Of a stretch of 64,000 nucleotides of DNA, positions 2,615 to 57,514 are shown piece by piece. Location of the stretch: NCBI RefSeq assembly GCF_014395785.1, contig NZ_CP060713.1, forward strand, positions 3,624,501 to 3,688,500, written 5' to 3'. This stretch comes from Nocardioides mesophilus. Its GTDB lineage: Bacteria > Actinomycetota > Actinomycetes > Propionibacteriales > Nocardioidaceae. The notes below the pieces were generated by a model. The model made no database searches and was not told where the DNA came from. It saw only the letters and a program-made list of their open reading frames with translations. Every line of letters starts with the position of its first letter. Positions within the stretch are counted from its first letter, which is position 1. The position numbers and the translations under genes were made by a program.

Positions 2615-5455
2615 ATGAGATCCCTCTCGGGACCCCGGTCGCCACGCGCTACCGGACTGCTCCTGACCCTGACCACGGCCCTGATCGGGTCCACGGTCGC
2701 CCTCGCCCCCTCGGCCCAGGCCGATCCCGCCGGCACCGGGCTGGTGCTCAACGAGGTGTACGGCGGCGGTGGCAACTCGGTCGCCACCTACCGCAACGAC
2801 TTCGTCGAGATCCTGAACCCGACCTCGGCCGCGATCGACCTCGGCGGCCTCTCGGTGCAGTACCGCAGCGCCACCGGCACCACCAACCCCTCGGGCGTGG
2901 TGGCCCTGGCCGACGTCGAGCTGCCGGGCGGCGCCAGCTACCTGCTGCAGCTGGCCAGCAGCGACACCACCGTCGGTGCGCCGCTGCCGGCCACGCCCGA
3001 CCAGACCGACACCGGGGTCAACCTGTCCGGCAGCACCGGCACGGTCCTGCTGGTGGCCGGCACCTCCGCCTACAACCCGGGCACCGGGGACCAGGCCGGC
3101 GACACCGGGCTGGTCGACCTGGTCGGGTACGGCGCCAGCAACACCTTCGAGAACGCCAGGGCCGACGCCGGCCCCGCGCCGGCGCCGAGCAACACCTCCT
3201 CGATCAGCCGGACCGGCGGCGCCGACTCCGACGACAACAGCACCGACTTCACGCGGCTCTCCGGCACCGCGATGACGCCGACCGCGTGCGGCGCCGCCTG
3301 CACCGCGCCGCCCCCGCAGCCGCCGGTGGAGCTGTCCGTCGCCGAGATCCAGGGCGACGGTGCGACCAGCCCCGTCGCCGGGGACACCGTCACCACCACC
3401 GGCGTGGTCACCGCGACCTACGCCGAGGGCGGCTTCCGGGGCTTCTACCTCCAGACCGGCGGCACCGGCCAGACGCTCGACGGCTCCTCGGACGCGCTCT
3501 TCGTCTGGGGCAGCTCGACCGTGGCCGCGATGGACGCCGGCCTCGCCCGGGGCGACTCCGTGAAGGTCACCGGCACCGTCAGCGAGTTCGGCGGGCTCAC
3601 CGAGCTGACGCCGGGGTCGGCCGCCGACATCGTGGAGCTGGCCGAGCCGCTCGCTCCGGTGACCCCGGCGTTGACCGGCTGGCCGGGCACCGACGCCGCC
3701 CGCGAGGCCCTCGAGGGGATGCTCGTGGCTCCTGCGGGCGACTTCACCGTGAGCGACAACTACGCCCTGAACCAGTACGGCGAGATCGGGATCGCGCAGG
3801 GGGACGAGCCCCTGTACCAGCCCACCGACGTCGCGCCGTTCGGCTCCGCGGAGGCCGACGCGGTGGCCGCGCACAACCAGGCCGCCTTCGTCACCCTCGA
3901 CGACGGTGCGAGCACCAACTTCCTCTACTCCGACGCCGGGGAGGACACCCCGCTGCCGTGGCTCACCGACGACCCGACGATCCGGGTCGGCGAGCCGGTG
4001 ACCTTCACCCGACCGGTCGTCGTGGACTACCGGTTCGGCCAGTGGCGGCTGCAGCCCACCGACCAGCTGACCGCCGGGGACACCAACGGGGTGCGACCGG
4101 CCACCTTCGGTGACACCCGGACCGCGCGCCCGGCCGACGTCGGCGGCGACCTCCAGGTCGCCAGCTTCAACGTCCTCAACTACTTCACCGACCTCGGGGT
4201 CGACCTCGCCGGCTGCACGTTCTACTACGACCGCACCGAGCAGGACCCGGTGACCGTGAACCGTGGCTGTGATGCCCGGGGCGCGGCCGAGGCCGAGGAC
4301 TTCGAGCGGCAGCAGGCCAAGATCGTCACCGCGATCAACTCGCTGGGAGCCGAGGTGGTCTCGCTGGAGGAGATCGAGAACTCCGCCAAGTTCGGCCACG
4401 ACCGGGACGCCTCCCTCGCGGCCCTGGTCCAGGCGCTCAACGCCGACGCCGGAGCCGACGTCTGGGCCTACGTCCCGACGCCGACCGTGCGGCCGGACGC
4501 GAGCACCGAGGACTTCATCCGCACCGCGTTCATCTACAAGCCCGCGGCCGTGCGCGCCGAGGGCGAGTCGGTGATCCGGATCAAGGACGGAGCCGAGGAC
4601 CCGTTCGTCAACGCCCGCGACCCGCTGGCCCAGGTGTTCGCGCCCGTCGGGGCGACCCGGACGGACCGGTTCATGCTGGTCGTGAACCACCTCAAGTCCA
4701 AGGGCTCAGCGCCCAAGGACGCGAGCGACCCCAACGCCGAGCACGGCCAGGGTGCCTGGAACCCGCGTCGTGTCGAGCAGGTGCGGGCGATGACCGCCTG
4801 GGTGCAGCAGCTGCAGGCCGACCGCGACGTGGCGAAGGTCTACCTCGACGGCGACTTCAACTCCTACACCTACGAGGACCCGATGCTCGCCCTCGACGAG
4901 GAGGGCTACACCGACCTCGGGGTCCGGTTCGACGCCGGCCACACCTACCTGTTCGGCGGCCTGATCGGCTCGCTCGACCACGGCCTGGCCAACGACGCCG
5001 CGCTGGCCTCCACCACGGGGGCAGCGGTGTGGAACATCAACTCGGTCGAGTCGGTGGCCCTGGAGTACAGCCGCTTCAACTACAACGCGACCGACTTCTA
5101 CGACGGCAGCACGCCCTACCGGGCCTCCGACCACGACCCGATCCTGTTCGGCATCGACACCACGCCGGCGGCCACGTTCGAGGTCACCGTGCGGCCGGAG
5201 AAGATCAAGGCCGACAAGACCCGGGCGAAGGTCACCGTCGGGATCAGCCAGTCCGGGGTGCCCGCCGAGGAGGGCACGGTGACCGTCTCCGACGGCGACC
5301 GGCTGCTCGCCACCGCAACGGTGTCCGAGGGCACGGCCAGGCTCCGGCTCCCGGAGTTCGCCGACGCCGGCACCAAGGAGCTGACCCTCAGCTACACCGA
5401 CGCAGCGGGGCACGAGAGCACCACCCCGCTCAGCGTGGTGGTGGTGGTCGGCTGA
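2615..5455 (+). CDS. ExeM/NucH-type secreted nuclease with lamin-tail domain
   Basis: This 946-aa exported protein has a signal peptide at about 1-36 (arginine-rich N-region, hydrophobic core, cut after AQA). A lamin-tail-like domain follows (LVLNEVYGGGGNS, to about 175), then an OB-fold region (about 235-480) and an endonuclease/exonuclease/phosphatase domain (about 505-850). Metal-site motifs are SFNVLNYF, SLEEIENS, VNHLKSKG, DGDFNSYTYEDP and ASDHDPILFG. An Ig-like C-terminal segment (about 855-946) ends it. The family degrades extracellular DNA for nutrition or biofilm turnover. I chose ATG 2615 because GGGGAGA lies 9 nt upstream; a TTG at 2588 has no such site and would add nine residues before the signal peptide. 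Confidence 0.88.
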   Translation: MRSLSGPRSPRATGLLLTLTTALIGSTVALAPSAQADPAGTGLVLNEVYGGGGNSVATYRNDFVEILNPTSAAIDLGGLSVQYRSATGTTNPSGVVALADVELPGGASYLLQLASSDTTVGAPLPATPDQTDTGVNLSGSTGTVLLVAGTSAYNPGTGDQAGDTGLVDLVGYGASNTFENARADAGPAPAPSNTSSISRTGGADSDDNSTDFTRLSGTAMTPTACGAACTAPPPQPPVELSVAEIQGDGATSPVAGDTVTTTGVVTATYAEGGFRGFYLQTGGTGQTLDGSSDALFVWGSSTVAAMDAGLARGDSVKVTGTVSEFGGLTELTPGSAADIVELAEPLAPVTPALTGWPGTDAAREALEGMLVAPAGDFTVSDNYALNQYGEIGIAQGDEPLYQPTDVAPFGSAEADAVAAHNQAAFVTLDDGASTNFLYSDAGEDTPLPWLTDDPTIRVGEPVTFTRPVVVDYRFGQWRLQPTDQLTAGDTNGVRPATFGDTRTARPADVGGDLQVASFNVLNYFTDLGVDLAGCTFYYDRTEQDPVTVNRGCDARGAAEAEDFERQQAKIVTAINSLGAEVVSLEEIENSAKFGHDRDASLAALVQALNADAGADVWAYVPTPTVRPDASTEDFIRTAFIYKPAAVRAEGESVIRIKDGAEDPFVNARDPLAQVFAPVGATRTDRFMLVVNHLKSKGSAPKDASDPNAEHGQGAWNPRRVEQVRAMTAWVQQLQADRDVAKVYLDGDFNSYTYEDPMLALDEEGYTDLGVRFDAGHTYLFGGLIGSLDHGLANDAALASTTGAAVWNINSVESVALEYSRFNYNATDFYDGSTPYRASDHDPILFGIDTTPAATFEVTVRPEKIKADKTRAKVTVGISQSGVPAEEGTVTVSDGDRLLATATVSEGTARLRLPEFADAGTKELTLSYTDAAGHESTTPLSVVVVVG

Positions 5456-5523
5456 CCCGCCGCGCCTGCACGACCTGAGGCCGTGGCCCTGGCGACTCAC
5501 CTCGCCCGGGCCGCGGCCTCGCC

Positions 5524-5529
5524 TATGAT
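5524..5529 (+). promoter_or_regulatory. -10 box (TATGAT) of the cinA gene, leaderless spacing
   Basis: TATGAT lies six bases before the ATG at 5536, so transcription should start at or next to the start codon. No -35 hexamer is evident at 17 bp. Confidence 0.5.
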
Positions 5530-5535
5530 CCGAGG

Positions 5536-6051
5536 ATGGCCGAGGACCTGGAGCGGGACCTGCACCACGAGGCGCGGGAACGCGCGGCCGAGCTGCACGC
5601 GGCGCTCCGCGCCCGGGGGCTCACCCTGGCGACGGCGGAGTCGTTGACCGGGGGCGGTCTCGCCGAGCTGGTCTCGGCGGTCCCGGGTGCCAGCGCCAGC
5701 TACCGCGGCGGGATGGTCGCCTACGCCTCCGACGTCAAGGTCAGCGTGCTCGGCGTCTCGGAGCGGACGGTCGCCGAGCACGGCGTGGTCTCGGCGCAGT
5801 GCGCCGCGGAGATGGCCGAGGGGGTCCGCGGACTGCTCGGTGCCGACGTCGCGGTCAGCACCACCGGTGTCGCGGGCCCGGACGCGCAGGAGGACAAGCC
5901 GGTGGGACTGGTGTTCCTGGGCATCGCGGACGGGGAGCAGACCCGGACCTTCGAGCTGCGGCTCGACGGAGACCGGGCCGAGATCCGGAGGCAGTCGGCG
6001 CGCCGGGCGGTCATCGCGGTCCTCGAGGTCGTGGTCGGCCGGCCCGTCTAG
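5536..6051 (+). CDS. cinA: CinA-type nicotinamide-nucleotide amidohydrolase (PncC domain)
   Basis: At 171 aa this is the stand-alone C-terminal CinA domain. It hydrolyses nicotinamide mononucleotide to nicotinate mononucleotide in pyridine-nucleotide salvage. Conserved segments are [14 protein letters not shown] (31-44), the YRGGMVAY strand, and [10 protein letters not shown] with a downstream KPVGLVF. The N-terminal MoCF-like domain of long CinA is absent, as is usual in actinobacteria. Together with pgsA upstream and clgR downstream it keeps the typical neighbourhood. Confidence 0.9.
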
Positions 6052-49978: not shown

Positions 49979-51400
49979 TCAGGCCGGCAGCTCCGGCGGC
50001 CGGCGGGTGAGTGTGCTTCCTCGTTTGGTGGTGATGACGTAGCTGCCGTCGTCCAGCCGTTTCACCGAGACACCCTCGGAGTGCTTCGCCATGTGGTGGC
50101 GGTGGCACAGGCAGTCGAGGTTGCACTCGCAGGTGCGGCCGGCCGGGAACGGTGTCCGGTGGTCGCACTCGCACTGGACCGCCGGGCGTTGACAGTTCGG
50201 CCAGACACAGGTGCCGTCGCGCGCCACGACCGTGCGCCAGAGGGGGTCGCTGGGCTGGTAGCCGGTGCTGGAGAGCTCGACGAACCTGCCGGAATCGTCG
50301 GTGAGCAGGCGGTACCAGGTCGATTGCGGGTCCTGAGCGATCTGCTGGATGGCGTCTGCGCTGATCACGCCCCCGCCTGCGAGCATCCCCGGGTCGTCCG
50401 TGAGCCCGATGAGGGATGAGAGCGGGACCGTGACGTTGATGACCGGCCGGGCGAACGCGCCGACGTCGGCGACGAACTCGAATGTGTCGGCCGGGTCGCC
50501 GGCGGCGTTGCCGTCGCCGTCGCCAGGACCGCTCGCGTCAGCCGCCGTTGCTGCGCCTTCTGCTGGGGACTCGTGCAGGCGGTCCTGCTCCAGCTCTGAG
50601 TTGGTGGCGCCGACCCGCAGCCGGCCGAGCAGCAGGTCCCGCATGGTGTCGGACCGCATCTGCTCCAGGGTCCGGGTCTCGCCGGGGGCCTCGCAGCGCT
50701 TCTTCGCGATCAGCGTGAGTCGGTAGTCGCACGCCAGCACGTCGTACGCCGAGCCGGTCATCGCCAGCATCGCTGTGCCGACCTCGTCGACCTTCTTCCA
50801 GGCCCGGCGCTTGTTGAACGCCTCGTGGTAGTTCTGCTTGGCCGACTTCTGGGTGAAGCGGAGCTTGCGGTAGCGAGCGGCGTTGCAGAGCCGGTGGCGC
50901 TCGATGGGGACGAGCGGGCTGTCCGGGTCGTCGTGCTTGGCGAAGTACTCCTCCATCATCTCGGCGAAGCCCTCGATGTCGGCCTCGTCGGCCAGGTCCT
51001 CCGCGGCATCGATCAGCGCCTGGGCACGCCAGAGGTCAAGTCGACCGGAGAGGCAGCGCTCCCAGACGGGCGGGAACCAGGCGGCGAGCCGATCGCGTGT
51101 CGCGAGGTCGGTCTCGATCCGCCTCTCGGGCACGTGCAGGGCCCCGCTGAACTCGAGGGCGGTCTCCCGCAGGGGAGTGGGGGCGAAATAGCCTTGGTCG
51201 GCTTCCTTGTCACCCGCCTGCTCCGCGCAGCGGTCCCGGAGGGTGGCATATGCCTCGAGGCGGTGGGCGTGGTCGGCGTTCTGCCGGACCTGCGCCTGGA
51301 CCGCGAAGGCGATCAGGTCCTGGTCGTCGAGCGTGGAGATGTGCGGGGCGGGTGGCGCCGGATTCTTGAACGGTGGTGGCTGATCGGGCGCGTCGAGCAC
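49979..51400 (-). CDS. 13E12-repeat family DUF222/HNH endonuclease-like protein
   Basis: In this 473-aa protein the DUF222 region (about 30-340) has the family cues ALIDAAEDLADEAD and RLTLIAKKRC. The C-terminal HNH nuclease motif reads CVWPNCQRPAVQCECDHRTPF...CLCHRHHMAKH (about 410-455). I move the start to GTG 51400 because GGAGG lies five bases upstream; the longest ORF (GTG 51460) would run through a LexA box. 13E12 genes in M. tuberculosis are known LexA targets, so SOS induction is expected. A Gly/Asp/Ala-rich insert lies near 305-330. Confidence 0.88.
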   Translation of the reverse strand: MLDAPDQPPPFKNPAPPAPHISTLDDQDLIAFAVQAQVRQNADHAHRLEAYATLRDRCAEQAGDKEADQGYFAPTPLRETALEFSGALHVPERRIETDLATRDRLAAWFPPVWERCLSGRLDLWRAQALIDAAEDLADEADIEGFAEMMEEYFAKHDDPDSPLVPIERHRLCNAARYRKLRFTQKSAKQNYHEAFNKRRAWKKVDEVGTAMLAMTGSAYDVLACDYRLTLIAKKRCEAPGETRTLEQMRSDTMRDLLLGRLRVGATNSELEQDRLHESPAEGAATAADASGPGDGDGNAAGDPADTFEFVADVGAFARPVINVTVPLSSLIGLTDDPGMLAGGGVISADAIQQIAQDPQSTWYRLLTDDSGRFVELSSTGYQPSDPLWRTVVARDGTCVWPNCQRPAVQCECDHRTPFPAGRTCECNLDCLCHRHHMAKHSEGVSVKRLDDGSYVITTKRGSTLTRRPPELPA

Positions 51401-51418
51401 GATGACCTCCGAGTGAAT

Positions 51419-51432
51419 CGAATGTGTGTTCG
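51419..51432. promoter_or_regulatory. LexA box of the 13E12 gene
   Basis: CGAATGTGTGTTCG with flanks giving TCGAATGTGTGTTCGA: one half-site exact, the other one mismatch (CGAAT). It lies 19 nt before the revised GTG start. Confidence 0.78.
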
Positions 51433-51482
51433 AAATCACTACATCAGGTACCTCCGACACTTTTCGTGCCGATCCACAGGGG

Positions 51483-52346
51483 CTACTCGTATTGGCCCGA
51501 AAGGACCGCGGTGGCCTCGCTGACCCTCAGCGGTGTCGGCGGCCCTGCGATGGTGACCGTCTCCGCGATGTCCTGCCACGCTCCGCCGTTCACCCGGAAT
51601 CGCGCCGAGTAGGTGACGTCCACCCGCGCCTGCACCGTCTGGTAGGCGTCCGAGTACACGTGGGTGACCTCCTTGGCCGGGTAGGGAGCGCCCGGCGTCG
51701 TGGTCGACGTGCTCGTGCCGTCGCCGTGCAACCAGGTGTACTGCGTGGGTTCCGCTTCGATGTCGACGCGCTGGCCGAGCAGCGTGATGGTGCGGCTGAA
51801 GCTTCGTGGCTCGGCGTAGAAGATGGTCTCGAAGTTGACCAGCGTCTTGTCGGCCGGCTGGGTCTTCGCCTCGATCGCCGGTAGCCCGAGGCGTCGCAGC
51901 GCGTTGAGTACCAGCGCCGGCGTGACTGTCGGCTTCGGGGTGTCGGCCAGCGTGGGCGGGCGCCCGAAGCATTGTGAGCCAATTGCCTCCCATCGACCGT
52001 CTGGTCGTCGAGCCCACAGGTCCCACAGTCGCTCGACCGGATCCGAACAGATTCGCGCAGCCGCGCAATCCAAGGTCGCGTCCCCGGGCCCGTTGGGATC
52101 GAAGCGGCGGCAGACGGACGACCATTGGTACTCCACGAATTCCGTGACCGACTTCTTCCCTGATACCGGAGCGAAAGTCACAGGATCATTGCCTTCTGAA
52201 GACTGTCCACAAGTCATGCCGAGGACAAGGACGTGGGCATCGGACCCGCCCGCACCCGCGCAACTGGGATCGCCATACGACGGAGCAATGTGGCCGACAG
52301 ACAGCAACGTGAAGACGGCCGCGACGAAGCAGGCGCGGACCCGCAT
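51483..52346 (-). CDS. Secreted protein with PKD-like domain
   Basis: This 287-aa protein has a signal peptide (about 1-25, MRVRACFVAAVFTLLSVGHI...). Four to six cysteines lie in the first 120 residues, which suggests disulfides. The C-terminal half (about 185-275) resembles a PKD/Ig-like domain: YTWLHGDGTSTSTTTPG...VTHVYSDAYQTVQARVDV. Similar secreted PKD proteins in actinobacteria are of unknown function. Its ATG overlaps the stop of the upstream lipoprotein gene (ATGA), so they are coupled. Confidence 0.72.
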   Translation of the reverse strand: MRVRACFVAAVFTLLSVGHIAPSYGDPSCAGAGGSDAHVLVLGMTCGQSSEGNDPVTFAPVSGKKSVTEFVEYQWSSVCRRFDPNGPGDATLDCAAARICSDPVERLWDLWARRPDGRWEAIGSQCFGRPPTLADTPKPTVTPALVLNALRRLGLPAIEAKTQPADKTLVNFETIFYAEPRSFSRTITLLGQRVDIEAEPTQYTWLHGDGTSTSTTTPGAPYPAKEVTHVYSDAYQTVQARVDVTYSARFRVNGGAWQDIAETVTIAGPPTPLRVSEATAVLSGQYE

Positions 52347-52912
52347 CAGGACGACACCAGATCCAGGCGAGACACCTCGTATCCGCTTGGCTGGCGAACG
52401 AGGAACATGGTCATGGGCTGCCTTTGTCCTGGGTGCCGGGTCGTCTTTCCCCGGCGATCGACGGCTACTTCGGCCTCTAAGTAGACGCCCAGAGACAAGA
52501 CCGAAGCCGCTGCAGTTGTCTTCAGGCTGCGGATAGAAGTGACCGTCCAGCCGTCCGACTCGATGTGGCCGCCCGCCTGGTACACCTTCTCGATGTTGCT
52601 GGCGATGGCCTCGCACGAGACGCAGTCCTCGGCGCCGAGGGCTCTCAGCTCATCCGTGTCGCCCGTGGCAGCGGCGTAGTTGATGGAGTCGAAGTAGTGC
52701 CGGGCAAATGCCTTGGCGGCGGCGGGGGACGTGCCGGACGCCGCAGGCGGGAGGGAGGGCGGCGTGGCGCTCGGTGACGGCGCCGGTGCGGAGGAGCTGG
52801 CCGACGGCGACGGCGACGGCAGCGGCGCCGGCTCGGCCGACGACGTACACGCCGACAGGGCCGCAAGGCCCAGCAGGACCGGCCCGACCACGACGCGTGC
52901 CACTCGCATCAT
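52346..52912 (-). CDS. DUF6318-type lipoprotein (copy 1)
   Basis: This 188-aa protein has a lipobox Leu-Ser-Ala-Cys22, then a long Ser/Pro/Ala linker (about 25-62) and a domain of about 120 residues with FARHYFDSINYAAATGDTDEL, a CVSC pair and GGHIESDGWTV. The same domain occurs in the neighbouring gene. GGGGG lies four bases before ATG 52912; the upstream extension to 52981 has no lipoprotein sense. It is coupled to the PKD gene. Role unknown; the fold looks like an NTF2-like envelope lipoprotein. Confidence 0.78.
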   Translation of the reverse strand: MMRVARVVVGPVLLGLAALSACTSSAEPAPLPSPSPSASSSAPAPSPSATPPSLPPAASGTSPAAAKAFARHYFDSINYAAATGDTDELRALGAEDCVSCEAIASNIEKVYQAGGHIESDGWTVTSIRSLKTTAAASVLSLGVYLEAEVAVDRRGKTTRHPGQRQPMTMFLVRQPSGYEVSRLDLVSS

Positions 52913-53040
52913 CCGACCCCCATGACGTCGACCCGAGCCGCCCGTGCGAAGGGCGGTTGACCCGGGCGAATCTACCCACACCGGACCGCGGGACGGAACC
53001 CCGATTGCTCAGGGTTGTGGAAGACGGGACAGGCGGGGAG

Positions 53041-53547
53041 TCAGCGGGGGGAGAGGTCCTGGACGTGCCACTCGCCGTCGTTGCGGACCAGGTGCAGCCG
53101 GAAGCCCTGCCGGCCACCGGGGTACGTCTGCGGCTTGGCGCCCTTCTCGGCGAACACCTGCTGCTCGGCGATCTGCACCGTCACCATCAGCCCGGCCTCG
53201 TCGTCCGTGGCGCCGGCCTCGGGCACGATCTTCTCGATCTGCCAGCCATCGGTCTCGACGTGCCCGCCGCTGCCGTAGATGGTGTCGAGCCGCTTGGCGA
53301 AGTCCAGGCAGGCCTTGCAGTCCGGCGCGGCCAGCGACTTGAACGTCTTCGTGTCACCGCTCGTGGTCGCCTCGTTGAGCGTGTCCACCCAGTACCCGGC
53401 GAACTGCTCCGCTCCGGCCTCACCCGCGTTGTCGGCGTAGGCCGGGCGCTCCGAGGCACCCGACGCCGCCTCGTCCGACGTCGATGCGCCGCACGCGGAC
53501 AGGCCGAGCACGAGAGCGAGCAGGAGAGCGGCTAGGCGGGCAATCAC
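53041..53547 (-). CDS. DUF6318-type lipoprotein (copy 2)
   Basis: This 168-aa paralogue of the adjacent lipoprotein lacks the Ser/Pro linker. Lipobox Leu-Ser-Ala-Cys19; domain with FAGYWVDTLNEATTSGDTKTF, CKAC, GGHVETDGWQI and a C-terminal strand pair GFRLHLVRNDGEWHVQDL. GTG start. Both copies keep the Cys-x-x-Cys pair and the GGHxExDGW signature, so they arose by duplication and are 128 nt apart. Confidence 0.8.
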   Translation of the reverse strand: MIARLAALLLALVLGLSACGASTSDEAASGASERPAYADNAGEAGAEQFAGYWVDTLNEATTSGDTKTFKSLAAPDCKACLDFAKRLDTIYGSGGHVETDGWQIEKIVPEAGATDDEAGLMVTVQIAEQQVFAEKGAKPQTYPGGRQGFRLHLVRNDGEWHVQDLSPR

Positions 53548-54347: not shown

Positions 54348-54502
54348 TGCCACGGGCGCATTCTGTCCTATCTGGGCGGTTTGCGGGGAGGAACCGGATG
54401 ATGCGGACCAGGGTGTCGCAACGGGTCCGTTTGTGTGCGGGACGACATGGGTACGAACCGGCGCATTCGACCACCAATCGACGCCACGGGGAGACCACCA
54501 TC

Positions 54503-55156
54503 ATGACGGACGACACGGGCCTGAGCCCTGAGGAGCTCTCGGCCGAGACCGCCACCGCACTGCCGGACAAGGAGGTCGTGTCGATCCTCGACCTCAACGC
54601 CGACCTCGACCTGGCCATCGACGCCGCCGCGCCGATCGATCTCGCGGTCGCCGCGAACGCCAACGTGGCGGCCCCGATCAACGCGGCCGCCAGCGCCAAC
54701 CTCCTCTCGGAGGGCTCCGAGGCCCAGGCGATGGGCGACCAGGGCGTGATGATCGACCAGAACATCGCCGCCGACGCCAACGCCACCGCGGACCAGCAGA
54801 GCGACCTCGACCAGGGCAACGACGTCGTCGACGACGGCACCGGCACCGACCCGGCCGCAACCGACCCGACCGCCGCCACCACCACGACCGACACCACCGC
54901 GGACGCGCTCGGCAGCGGCTCCCTGCTCGACGTGGACGTCAACCTCGACGCGGACGCCGACATCGCCGCCCCGATCAACGGTGCGGTCGCCGCGAACGCC
55001 AACGTGGCCGCCCCGATCAACGCCGGTGTCGCCGCCAACGTCGGCTCGATCGACAGCGACGCGATCGCGGTCTCGCAGCAGGACGCGATCATCAACCAGA
55101 ACATCGAGGGCGAGGCCAACGCCGACTCCGGCCAGGACTCGGACATCCGCCAGTAG
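54503..55156 (+). CDS. Duplicated 78-residue repeat protein upstream of an M50 protease (precursor-like)
   Basis: This 217-aa, strongly acidic protein lacks Cys, Trp, Tyr and Phe. N-terminal segment 1-26 (SPEELSAETATALPDKEVVSIL) looks like a leader. Residues 27-104 and 140-217 are two ungapped 78-residue repeats, about half identical by eye, sharing AAPI, AANANVAAPIN, QNI and a final Gln. A Thr/Asp/Ala linker (105-139) joins them. ATG 54503 has GGGGAGA eight bases upstream; an in-frame ATG at 54398 with GGGGAGGA five bases upstream would add 35 residues. It lies 36 nt before the protease. No known family. Confidence 0.72.
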   Translation: MTDDTGLSPEELSAETATALPDKEVVSILDLNADLDLAIDAAAPIDLAVAANANVAAPINAAASANLLSEGSEAQAMGDQGVMIDQNIAADANATADQQSDLDQGNDVVDDGTGTDPAATDPTAATTTTDTTADALGSGSLLDVDVNLDADADIAAPINGAVAANANVAAPINAGVAANVGSIDSDAIAVSQQDAIINQNIEGEANADSGQDSDIRQ

Positions 55157-55192
55157 CGCACCCGACACGACAAGCGTCCTGGGACGACGACC

Positions 55193-57514
55193 GTGAGCAC
55201 CCCCGCCACCGAGCGGGAGGCCCTGCGCCGCGCCGACGGCCTCCAGCTGATCGGGGAGATGGCGGGATCCGGATACCGGGTCCCGCCCTCCCTGGTCCGC
55301 CGCGGCGACGGCCAGACCCTCCAGCTGACCACCCTGCTCTACCTCACCCTCGAGGCCGTGGACGGCCGCCGCAGCGTCGAGGAGGTGGCCGACGCCGTCT
55401 CCGCCCGGTTCGGCAAGCGGGTCAGTGCCGACAACGTCCGCAGCCTGGTGGCCGACCAGCTTCAGCCCCTCGGGCTGCTCGCGCGGGCCGACGGCAGCCA
55501 GCCGGAGGTGAAGCGGTCCAACCCGCTGCTCGGCCTCAGGTTCCGCTACTCGGTCACCGACCCCGAGCGCACCCGGCGGCTGACGGACCCGTTCACCGTG
55601 CTGTTCCGGCCGTTCGTGCTGGTGCCGCTGCTGGCCGCCTTCGCGTTGGTCTGCTGGTGGGTCTTCTTCGAGAAGGGGCTGGCCTCGGCGACGTACCAGG
55701 CCTTCGACCACCCGGGCCTGCTGCTGCTCGTCTTCGTCGTCACGGTGCTCTCGGCGGGGTTCCACGAGTTCGGCCACGCGGCGGCGGCGCGGTACGGCGG
55801 CTCCATCCCGGGGGTCATGGGGGCCGGCGTCTATCTGGTGTGGCCGGCGTTCTACACCGACGTCACGGACTCCTACCGCCTCGGCCGGGCAGGGCGGGTG
55901 CGCACCGACCTCGGCGGCCTCTACTTCAACGCGATCGTGGCGGTCGCGATCGCCGGCGTCTGGTGGGCCAGCGGGTACGACGCGCTGCTGCTCGTCGTCG
56001 CGACGCAGATCCTCCAGATGGTGCGCCAGCTGACGCCGCTCGTGCGCTTCGACGGCTACCACGTGCTGGCCGACGTGACCGGCGTCCCGGACCTATACCA
56101 CCGGATCAAGCCGACGCTGCTCGGCGCGCTGCCGTGGCGGTGGGGCGACCCGGAGGCCCGGCTGCTGAAGCCGTGGGCGCGCACGGTCGTGACTGTCTGG
56201 GTGCTGGTCGTGGTGCCGCTGCTGCTGTTCACGCTGGCGATGCTGGTGCTCGCGATGCCGCGGGTATTGGCGACCGCATGGGCGCAGCTCGAGCAGCGGC
56301 AGGGTGCGCTGGGTGCGGCCTGGGGCGACGGTGACCTGGTGCAGAGCGGTGCACAGCTGCTGACCATGGCGGCGATCGCGCTGCCGATCCTCGGCACGTT
56401 CCTGGTGCTCGGCCGGGTGCTGCGCCGCGCCGGCCGGTCGGTCTGGCGCGGCACGGCCGGCCACCCGGTGCGCCGTACCCTCGCCGGCATCACCGCACTG
56501 GCCGTCGTCGCGGCGCTGGTCTGGGTGTGGTGGCCGGACGGGCGGACCTACCGGCCGATCCAGCCGGACGAGCGGGGCACGCTGGCCGACGCGGTGGCCG
56601 CCGTCCCGGTCAGCGCAGGCCTCGCCCGGCCCGCGCCCGAGGTCGCGTTGCGCGCCGGCGAGCGGGGCCGCGCTACGGCCGTGTGGGACACCGACGAGCC
56701 TCTGCCGACCCGCACGCAGCCGCGACTCGCGCTGGTGATGGTCCCGCGGCCCGGCGCCGACGCGGCCACGGCGCGGACCTGGGTCTTCCCGTTCGACAAG
56801 CCGCTCGCCCCCGGTCCCGGCGACAACCAGGCGCTGGCGGTGAACACCGAGGACGGCACGGTCGTCTACGACACCGCCTTCGCGCTGGTCTGGGTGGAGG
56901 ACGGGGCGGAGGCGCTGAACACCAACGAGGCCTACGCTTTCGCGAGCTGCACCTCCTGCGGCGCCGTCTCGATCGCCTTCCAGGTCGTGCTCGTCGTCGG
57001 CGACAACCACACCGCCGTACCGCAGAACCTCTCGGGCGCGGTCAACTCCGACTGCGTGAACTGCCTGACCTACGCGCTGGCGCAGCAGCTCTTCATCACC
57101 CTCGACGGGCCGCTGTCGGAGGACGCGATGGCGCAGCTCGATGCGCTGTGGGCGCAGATCGCCGCCTACGCCGCGGACATCGAGAACGTCCCGCTCGGCG
57201 AGATCGACGATCGCCTCGACGAGTTCGAGACCCAGATCCTCGCGATCATCGAGGCCGACCAGCCGGGGACGCTGCCGTCCGCGCCGGCCTCAGCGACGCC
57301 GTCGGGATCCGCGACGGCATCCGCGGCGGCGTCCGGCAGCGCGCTGCCGTCGGCCGGTACGTCGTCGGGCGCCTCGTCCACGCCGTCCCCGTCTCCGACG
57401 GGTGCTACGTCGCCCAGCGGCTCACCGACGCCCACACCTTCAGCTGCCGCGCCCACTCCCTCGCCCTCAGCGCCGTCACCGTCAGCCTCCCCGGCTGCCG
57501 CGGCCTCTCAGTAG
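55193..57514 (+). CDS. M50-type membrane metallopeptidase with PqqD-like N-domain
   Basis: This 773-aa multi-domain protein has a PqqD/RRE-like helix-sheet domain at about 35-105 (LYLTLEAVDGRRSVEEVADAV). The M50 membrane protease core follows, with zinc motif HEFGH at 191-195 and a second Asp in RFDGYHVLAD near 287. Eight or so spans run from about 140 to 445. An extracellular domain (about 450-690) has CTSC and CVNC pairs and a coiled helix, and the tail (about 690-773) is Ser/Pro/Ala-rich. It resembles YydH-type peptide zinc metalloproteases. The upstream repeat protein is its likely substrate or partner. Confidence 0.84.
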   Translation: MSTPATEREALRRADGLQLIGEMAGSGYRVPPSLVRRGDGQTLQLTTLLYLTLEAVDGRRSVEEVADAVSARFGKRVSADNVRSLVADQLQPLGLLARADGSQPEVKRSNPLLGLRFRYSVTDPERTRRLTDPFTVLFRPFVLVPLLAAFALVCWWVFFEKGLASATYQAFDHPGLLLLVFVVTVLSAGFHEFGHAAAARYGGSIPGVMGAGVYLVWPAFYTDVTDSYRLGRAGRVRTDLGGLYFNAIVAVAIAGVWWASGYDALLLVVATQILQMVRQLTPLVRFDGYHVLADVTGVPDLYHRIKPTLLGALPWRWGDPEARLLKPWARTVVTVWVLVVVPLLLFTLAMLVLAMPRVLATAWAQLEQRQGALGAAWGDGDLVQSGAQLLTMAAIALPILGTFLVLGRVLRRAGRSVWRGTAGHPVRRTLAGITALAVVAALVWVWWPDGRTYRPIQPDERGTLADAVAAVPVSAGLARPAPEVALRAGERGRATAVWDTDEPLPTRTQPRLALVMVPRPGADAATARTWVFPFDKPLAPGPGDNQALAVNTEDGTVVYDTAFALVWVEDGAEALNTNEAYAFASCTSCGAVSIAFQVVLVVGDNHTAVPQNLSGAVNSDCVNCLTYALAQQLFITLDGPLSEDAMAQLDALWAQIAAYAADIENVPLGEIDDRLDEFETQILAIIEADQPGTLPSAPASATPSGSATASAAASGSALPSAGTSSGASSTPSPSPTGATSPSGSPTPTPSAAAPTPSPSAPSPSASPAAAASQ

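Follow-up and report, generated by a model that had tools for sequence, protein, structure and literature searches.

A leader-bearing repeat protein and an RRE-fused M50 membrane protease form a two-gene unit widespread in actinobacteria

The window, a stretch of 64,000 nucleotides from Nocardioides mesophilus (contig NZ_CP060713.1, positions 3,624,501 to 3,688,500), contains two co-directional genes on the + strand that are separated by a 36 nt spacer (55157-55192), the interval already given in a preliminary description of this DNA. The upstream gene encodes a leader-bearing repeat protein, hereafter the precursor, and the downstream gene a membrane protease. Their features are as follows.

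54488..54493, + strand: ribosome-binding-like stretch GGGGAG, 9 nt 5' of the ATG at 54503; read from the sequence, with no experiment.
54503..55156, + strand: precursor gene, 217 aa, comprising a leader and two repeats; the ORF is kept in related loci.
54503..54580, + strand: leader, residues 1-26 (MTDDTGLSPEELSAETATALPDKEVV), with its motif in all loci and not duplicated; a cut close to S27 is predicted.
54581..54814, + strand: core repeat 1, residues 27-104, the first half strictly alternating and beta-like (self-alignment, alternation test).
54815..54919, + strand: linker rich in Thr, Asp and Ala, residues 105-139 (self-alignment).
54920..55153, + strand: core repeat 2, residues 140-217 (self-alignment).
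55193..57514, + strand: M50 site-2 protease with RRE fusion, 773 aa, GTG start (NCBIfam daptide_HExxH, E 2.9e-28, under the curated cut-off; LiaK, E 4.7e-8; alignment of 19 homologues).
55217..55525, + strand: RRE or PqqD-like domain, residues 9-111 (Foldseek of the homologous domain of locus L010; hhalign with MpaP).
55763..55777, + strand: HEFGH zinc motif, residues 191-195; HExGH is invariant in 19/19 homologues.
56048..56062, + strand: second-site motif FDGYH with D287; D287-G288-Y289 is invariant in 19/19.
56474..56536, + strand: last predicted transmembrane segment, residues 428-448, with a basic loop before it (hydropathy).
56558..57262, + strand: external domain containing two CxxC pairs; other loci encode it as a separate protein with a signal peptide.
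57263..57511, + strand: Pro/Ser/Thr-rich tail, read from the sequence.

The stop codon of the precursor gene lies at 55154-55156. Its start had been placed at 54398, which is too early; the ATG at 54503 is the best choice, because the GGGGAG stretch stands before it and homologues begin at the same place, as in the alignment of the N-terminus from L007 (MDDTNGLSDQEL) with that of the window protein (MTDDTGLSPEEL). Apart from this coordinate, the gene anatomy proposed earlier holds, including two ungapped 78-residue repeats joined by a Thr/Asp linker, without Cys or aromatic residues. Residues 27-104 and 140-217 align without gaps and are identical at 42 of 78 positions, and the residue count gives 40 acidic and 2 basic residues and no Cys, Trp, Phe or Tyr. 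When the precursor is matched against itself at an offset of 113, there are 47 identities, compared with 38 in the best of 1000 composition-preserving shuffles. Residues 1-26 show identity at only 5 of 26 positions and are thus not duplicated. Because of this, and because the second repeat of proteins with the same architecture (group A, below) has no leader, the border between leader and core is set at residue 26/27; a cut near S27 is suggested, since the end of the leader motif coincides with the start of the first core, and repeat 2 is leaderless. The maximum 19-residue hydropathy is 1.25, which indicates no membrane segment, and the C-terminus is SDIRQ. Searches of Pfam and NCBIfam placed the repeat protein in no family and revealed no DNA-binding or sigma-like domain within it, comparison of both window proteins with PHROGs and PADLOC gave no phage or defence link, and no relatives were found in the viral contigs searched.

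The downstream protein has several hydrophobic segments and satisfies what is expected of an M50 site-2 protease, namely an HExxH motif and a D-G second site within membrane segments; the second site reads RFDGYH in full. It had been called an M50 membrane protease on the strength of HEFGH and a second-site Asp, and both the invariance of these motifs across 19 homologues and the hydropathy profile bear this out, even though the protein has no family match in Pfam. The two CxxC pairs ascribed to an external domain are likewise present, as CTSC and CVNC, beyond the last transmembrane segment, and from the positive-inside rule the C-terminus is inferred to lie outside the cell.

The N-terminal domain had been described as PqqD-like. 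By sequence profile that call is weak: on the single window protein the domain falls under Pfam detection, the best Pfam PqqD match (E 0.028) occurs in only 2/19 homologues, and a profile of the domain searched against PDB sequences recovered only PqqD 3g2b, at E 0.73. Structure prediction settles the matter. AlphaFold models the domain with a pLDDT of ~90 (window protein) or 94 (L010 protein), and in both its elements follow the order strand-strand-strand-helix-helix-helix, meeting the winged-helix criterion. The three best PDB matches of the L010 model in Foldseek were PqqD 5sxy, lasso B1 6jx3 and TbiB1 5v1u (probabilities 1.00, 1.00 and 0.99; TM ~0.62-0.67 over the target; E 0.023-0.035), the latter two being structures solved with leader bound. 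Together with an alignment to MpaP that is collinear from the RRE through the protease, these matches confirm the domain as an RRE; it has the same fold as the lasso B1 RREs and PqqD, and differs from them in being fused to a membrane protease and in the leader sequence that accompanies it. The modelled chains consisted of precursor and protease read through the intergenic stop (TAG as Q in the window, TGA as W in L010). In both of these single-chain models the leader, which an RRE would bind as an added strand, is undocked from the RRE, with low confidence, and confidence in the precursor part is mostly <50, the best value being 63. A helix drawn for the core is of low confidence and at odds with the alternation test below, and is not relied on. 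Foldseek of the full model returned nothing significant.

Relatives were gathered in three ways. Two Streptomyces loci came from a search of plasmids. At least 18 more actinobacterial loci, 38-60% identical, emerged when an alignment of three proteases was run against one genome for each species, and a genus-level search added two further loci and one already known. The sample examined here comprises 23 loci, including the window, drawn from at least 23, and spans Nocardioidaceae, Micrococcaceae, Mycobacteriaceae, Intrasporangiaceae, Frankiales, Streptosporangiaceae, Thermomonosporaceae, Streptomycetaceae, Acidimicrobiia and Thermoleophilia. All 23 have a co-directional leader ORF 5' of the protease, carrying the motif E-L-x-x-E-x-[GA]-x-x-LPx[KR][EA][AV]x[SG] or a sequence that departs slightly from its first half; the LP half is intact throughout. 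A few loci examined first supplied the motif, which was afterwards applied to the others. In its strict form, LPx[KR][EA][AV][LMV][SG], it was counted 28 times in the 2.2 kb preceding the protease, across 19/21 loci, the other two (L004 and L005) having LPDKEVAS; elsewhere in 730,106 six-frame residues there were two more occurrences, of which one belongs to an additional precursor carried by the same plasmid. The motif is also present in two more loci from the genus of the window, in one of which the variable position is Ile; L004, L005 and L035 deviate from the strict form at one variable position. Conservation of the N-terminal 26 residues, on which the original proposal had been made to depend, is thus found: they are the most conserved part of the precursor and are common to four unlike types of core.

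The proposal would also have failed had the repeat protein occurred mostly without the protease. In a search of 31 genomes with the precursor profile alone, a small sample, all four positives were from the genus of the window and each had the protease directly downstream. None of 24 genomes from elsewhere in the family and order had the precursor, so the unit is patchy in distribution. Plasmid searches with precursors of groups C and D (below) recovered no plasmid beyond the two from Streptomyces in which the protease had already been found, and none for P0002. In L002, a second Gly-rich precursor with an LPERAVLS leader (3918-4145) lies ~2 kb before the first, so that several precursors can share one protease. 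In L021 (6190-9447), from Streptomyces DHE7-1, the RRE and protease parts are in different frames, through a frameshift or a sequencing error. L022-L027 are distant M50 relatives from Clostridium, Planctomycetota and Proteobacteria, most of which match from the RRE side on; the proteobacterial matches on plasmids carry the annotation HlyD adaptor, and it may be common for M50 proteins to be joined to other export components.

Four core types stand behind the common leader. Type A, the double repeat within one protein, is found in the window and ten other loci; type B has a single repeat per gene and four tandem genes (L010, L014); type C consists of basic peptides of ~70 aa in one or two copies, in Streptomycetaceae; and type D of Gly-rich peptides with two Cys, in Actinomadura and some Streptomyces. 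The A and B cores are related by alignment. Core type follows the clade of the protease, requiring 3 changes on the protease tree, the minimum for 4 groups. At the start of group A cores, ~40 residues alternate strictly between hydrophobic and small or polar, and in 7/7 leading cores tested this gave z values of 4.5-5.6 at 170 degrees and no signal at 100 degrees; group B reached z ~2, group C showed no alternation, and 53 control windows from proteases did not exceed 1.1. Such alternation is the pattern of extended beta structure, as far as sequence can tell, so that an extended beta core remains an inference for group A, and a single beta fold common to all cores is not shown, group C being without alternation. 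Functional amyloids such as curli and FapC have a similar two-residue alternation. No sequence match to amyloid families or structures was obtained for the precursor, and by structure Foldseek paired the full model weakly with FapC (E 0.07, prob 0.23); since the precursor part of this model is of low confidence, the match is no evidence on its own. That the core forms a fibre or surface structure is accordingly the weaker inference, possible but somewhat doubtful, and fibre formation is untested.

The combination of a fixed leader with variable cores also bears on what the protease does to the protein beside it. Regulated proteolysis is a frequent role of M50 site-2 proteases, and the repeat protein could be a cell-envelope regulator that is degraded or controlled by the protease, with no release of a core; SpoIVFB:pro-sigmaK did appear when the full model was compared by fold, as a weak match. 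Yet the absence of any DNA-binding or sigma-like domain from the precursor speaks against a regulator, for which precursors in tandem multiple copies would be unusual, and a fixed leader on variable cores suits a tag on varied cargo. Regulation is therefore regarded as quite improbable.

In group A the external CxxC domain forms part of the protease chain; most B and C loci encode it as a protein of its own, with a signal peptide in those that were read. Its four Cys are invariant in 8/8 aligned sequences, and no recognized relative of the domain was found, including in a search against the PDB. It was not found in the group D loci or in L016, and the sequence of L012 ends before it. L004 encodes, besides the fused copy, a second, separate CxxC protein upstream of the precursor (5191-6051). 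Because the domain is fused in one clade and separate in others, a putative extracellular partner in the same process is suggested. One might instead suppose that leader and RRE serve for docking only and that the real product is a CxxC surface complex, to which the repeat protein is accessory. The retention of the domain, fused or separate, in most A-C loci, and its second copy in L004, would fit such a complex; its absence from group D, where leader and RRE-protease persist, makes the idea very hard to sustain.

Among characterized proteins, the window protease is closest to MpaP/DapP, the leader protease of daptides (NCBIfam NF041824), which the preliminary description did not name and in which an RRE is likewise fused N-terminally to an intramembrane site-2 protease, with a leader-bearing substrate encoded nearby; removal of the daptide leader by MpaP, in dependence on the RRE, has been proposed (PMC10036551). 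MpaP from a plasmid of S. virginiae aligns with the window family at 31% identity in BLASTP (E 8e-17) and in hhalign with a probability of 99 (E 3e-18), and the daptide_HExxH model is matched by 19/19 family members. Against NF041824, however, the window protease scores 99.1 bits, and the cut-off of 300 is not met. Daptide precursors have an ELExMEAP leader and an invariant C-terminal Thr (PMC10036551), and the window precursor has neither, its own leader being LSPEELSAETATALPDKEVV and the motif LPx[KR]EA taking the place of ELExMEAP; relative to MpaP, moreover, the external CxxC domain is an addition. None of the daptide partners (the oxidative decarboxylase pair, the aminotransferase and the methyltransferase) is among the ten ORFs flanking the window genes, other loci having been judged from their 25 commonest families only. 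The window unit thus works like a daptide leader protease and fails daptide membership on leader, C-terminal Thr, partners and score. The two-gene idea has a precedent, being a variation on a known arrangement. A literature search found nothing describing this precursor-protease pair. The epipeptide protease YydH/LiaK/EpeP (NF058609) is also an M50 membrane protease acting on a ribosomal peptide, and EpeP is thought to both cut and export its peptide (PMC10885120). The LiaK model is matched weakly by 19/19 members; in the window protease the match scores 33 bits, under the cut-off of 225, and spans residues 177-299 only, not the RRE.

These likenesses invite the interpretation that the locus is a RiPP-type antimicrobial or signalling pathway, its core being modified by enzymes encoded elsewhere, then cut and exported as in daptides and epipeptides. 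The RRE-M50 arrangement shared with MpaP and the weak LiaK match are in keeping with it, as are the short cores of groups B, C and D, of which B and C often occur as tandem copies; tandem copies are seen in many RiPP precursors. The genes around the window pair speak against it: the ten flanking ORFs include DUF6318 proteins, an SDR, a DHDPS-like protein, an FAD oxidoreductase and others, and no RiPP-modifying enzyme or radical-SAM epimerase, in agreement with the earlier statement that this would not be a standard RiPP locus. For the 101 neighbour ORFs of 21 loci, the 25 commonest Pfam families include no RiPP-modifying one; most families present once fall outside this list, so that single cases are not excluded. 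By the criteria for a RiPP, then, the leader-core precursor is present and a modifying enzyme in the cluster is not, either in the ten flanking ORFs or recurrently in the 21 loci. No ABC transporter or immunity-like gene is conserved, and group A cores are repeats of ~190 aa without Cys. Overall, a RiPP pathway of this kind is judged unlikely. The neighbour scan disclosed no recurrent partner gene of any sort; FAD_binding_3 was present in 4/101 ORFs and looks incidental. Elsewhere in the window, two adjoining DUF6318 proteins with lipoprotein-like starts (52346-52981 and 53041-53538, - strand) are apparently a duplication, and the protein at 49979-51460 (- strand) resembles by eye a 13E12-type HNH endonuclease protein, with no Pfam match at E 0.01.

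Preferred to these alternatives, and considered probable, is a leader-guided unit for the maturation and release of a secreted repeat protein. The precursor would be made in the cytoplasm with its 26-residue leader and no ordinary signal peptide, and the cytoplasmic RRE would grip the leader (L-S-x-E-E-L-x-x-E-x-x-x-x-LPDKEVV). The site-2 protease would then cut beside the conserved Ser or Gly that follows LPx[KR][EA][AV]x, here S27, and the acidic, beta-patterned core would be released or passed outward, perhaps via the protease itself, to be handled or anchored outside by the CxxC domain; no amino-acid modification would be needed. Of these steps, the cytoplasmic precursor without a signal peptide and the putative grip of the RRE on its leader rest on homology and conservation and the cut on family chemistry, while the remainder, including the direction of export and the overall function, is inference. 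Site-2 proteases normally cleave membrane segments. The scheme is weak in two respects: the leader remained undocked in silico, and the core, not being a membrane segment, leaves unexplained both its access to the active site and its crossing of the membrane. The overall reading of the preliminary description is therefore supported by linkage, leader conservation and the RRE fold, whereas leader binding, cleavage and release or display have not been shown.

The unit itself is real and widespread in actinobacteria, and is close to what had been proposed. It looks like the cut-and-release of structural proteins by the logic of peptide-antibiotic maturation, with the usual modifying enzymes absent. 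A bolder version, offered only tentatively, is that it represents an unrecognized release route of Actinomycetota, in which the RRE-protease fusion would be the sole, modification-free maturase and exporter of self-assembling beta-repeat cargo, with one leader code serving four cores and the CxxC domain assisting assembly. RRE domains are known from peptide-modifying pathways; in this unit the RRE belongs to a membrane protease that has no modifying enzyme next to it, and its substrates are proteins of 217 aa or more, so that leader recognition appears to be used for a plain cut and release. The common leader on unlike cores offers a handle for mining genomes for further cargo, and the two-gene system makes testable the question of whether M50 leader proteases only cut or both cut and export.
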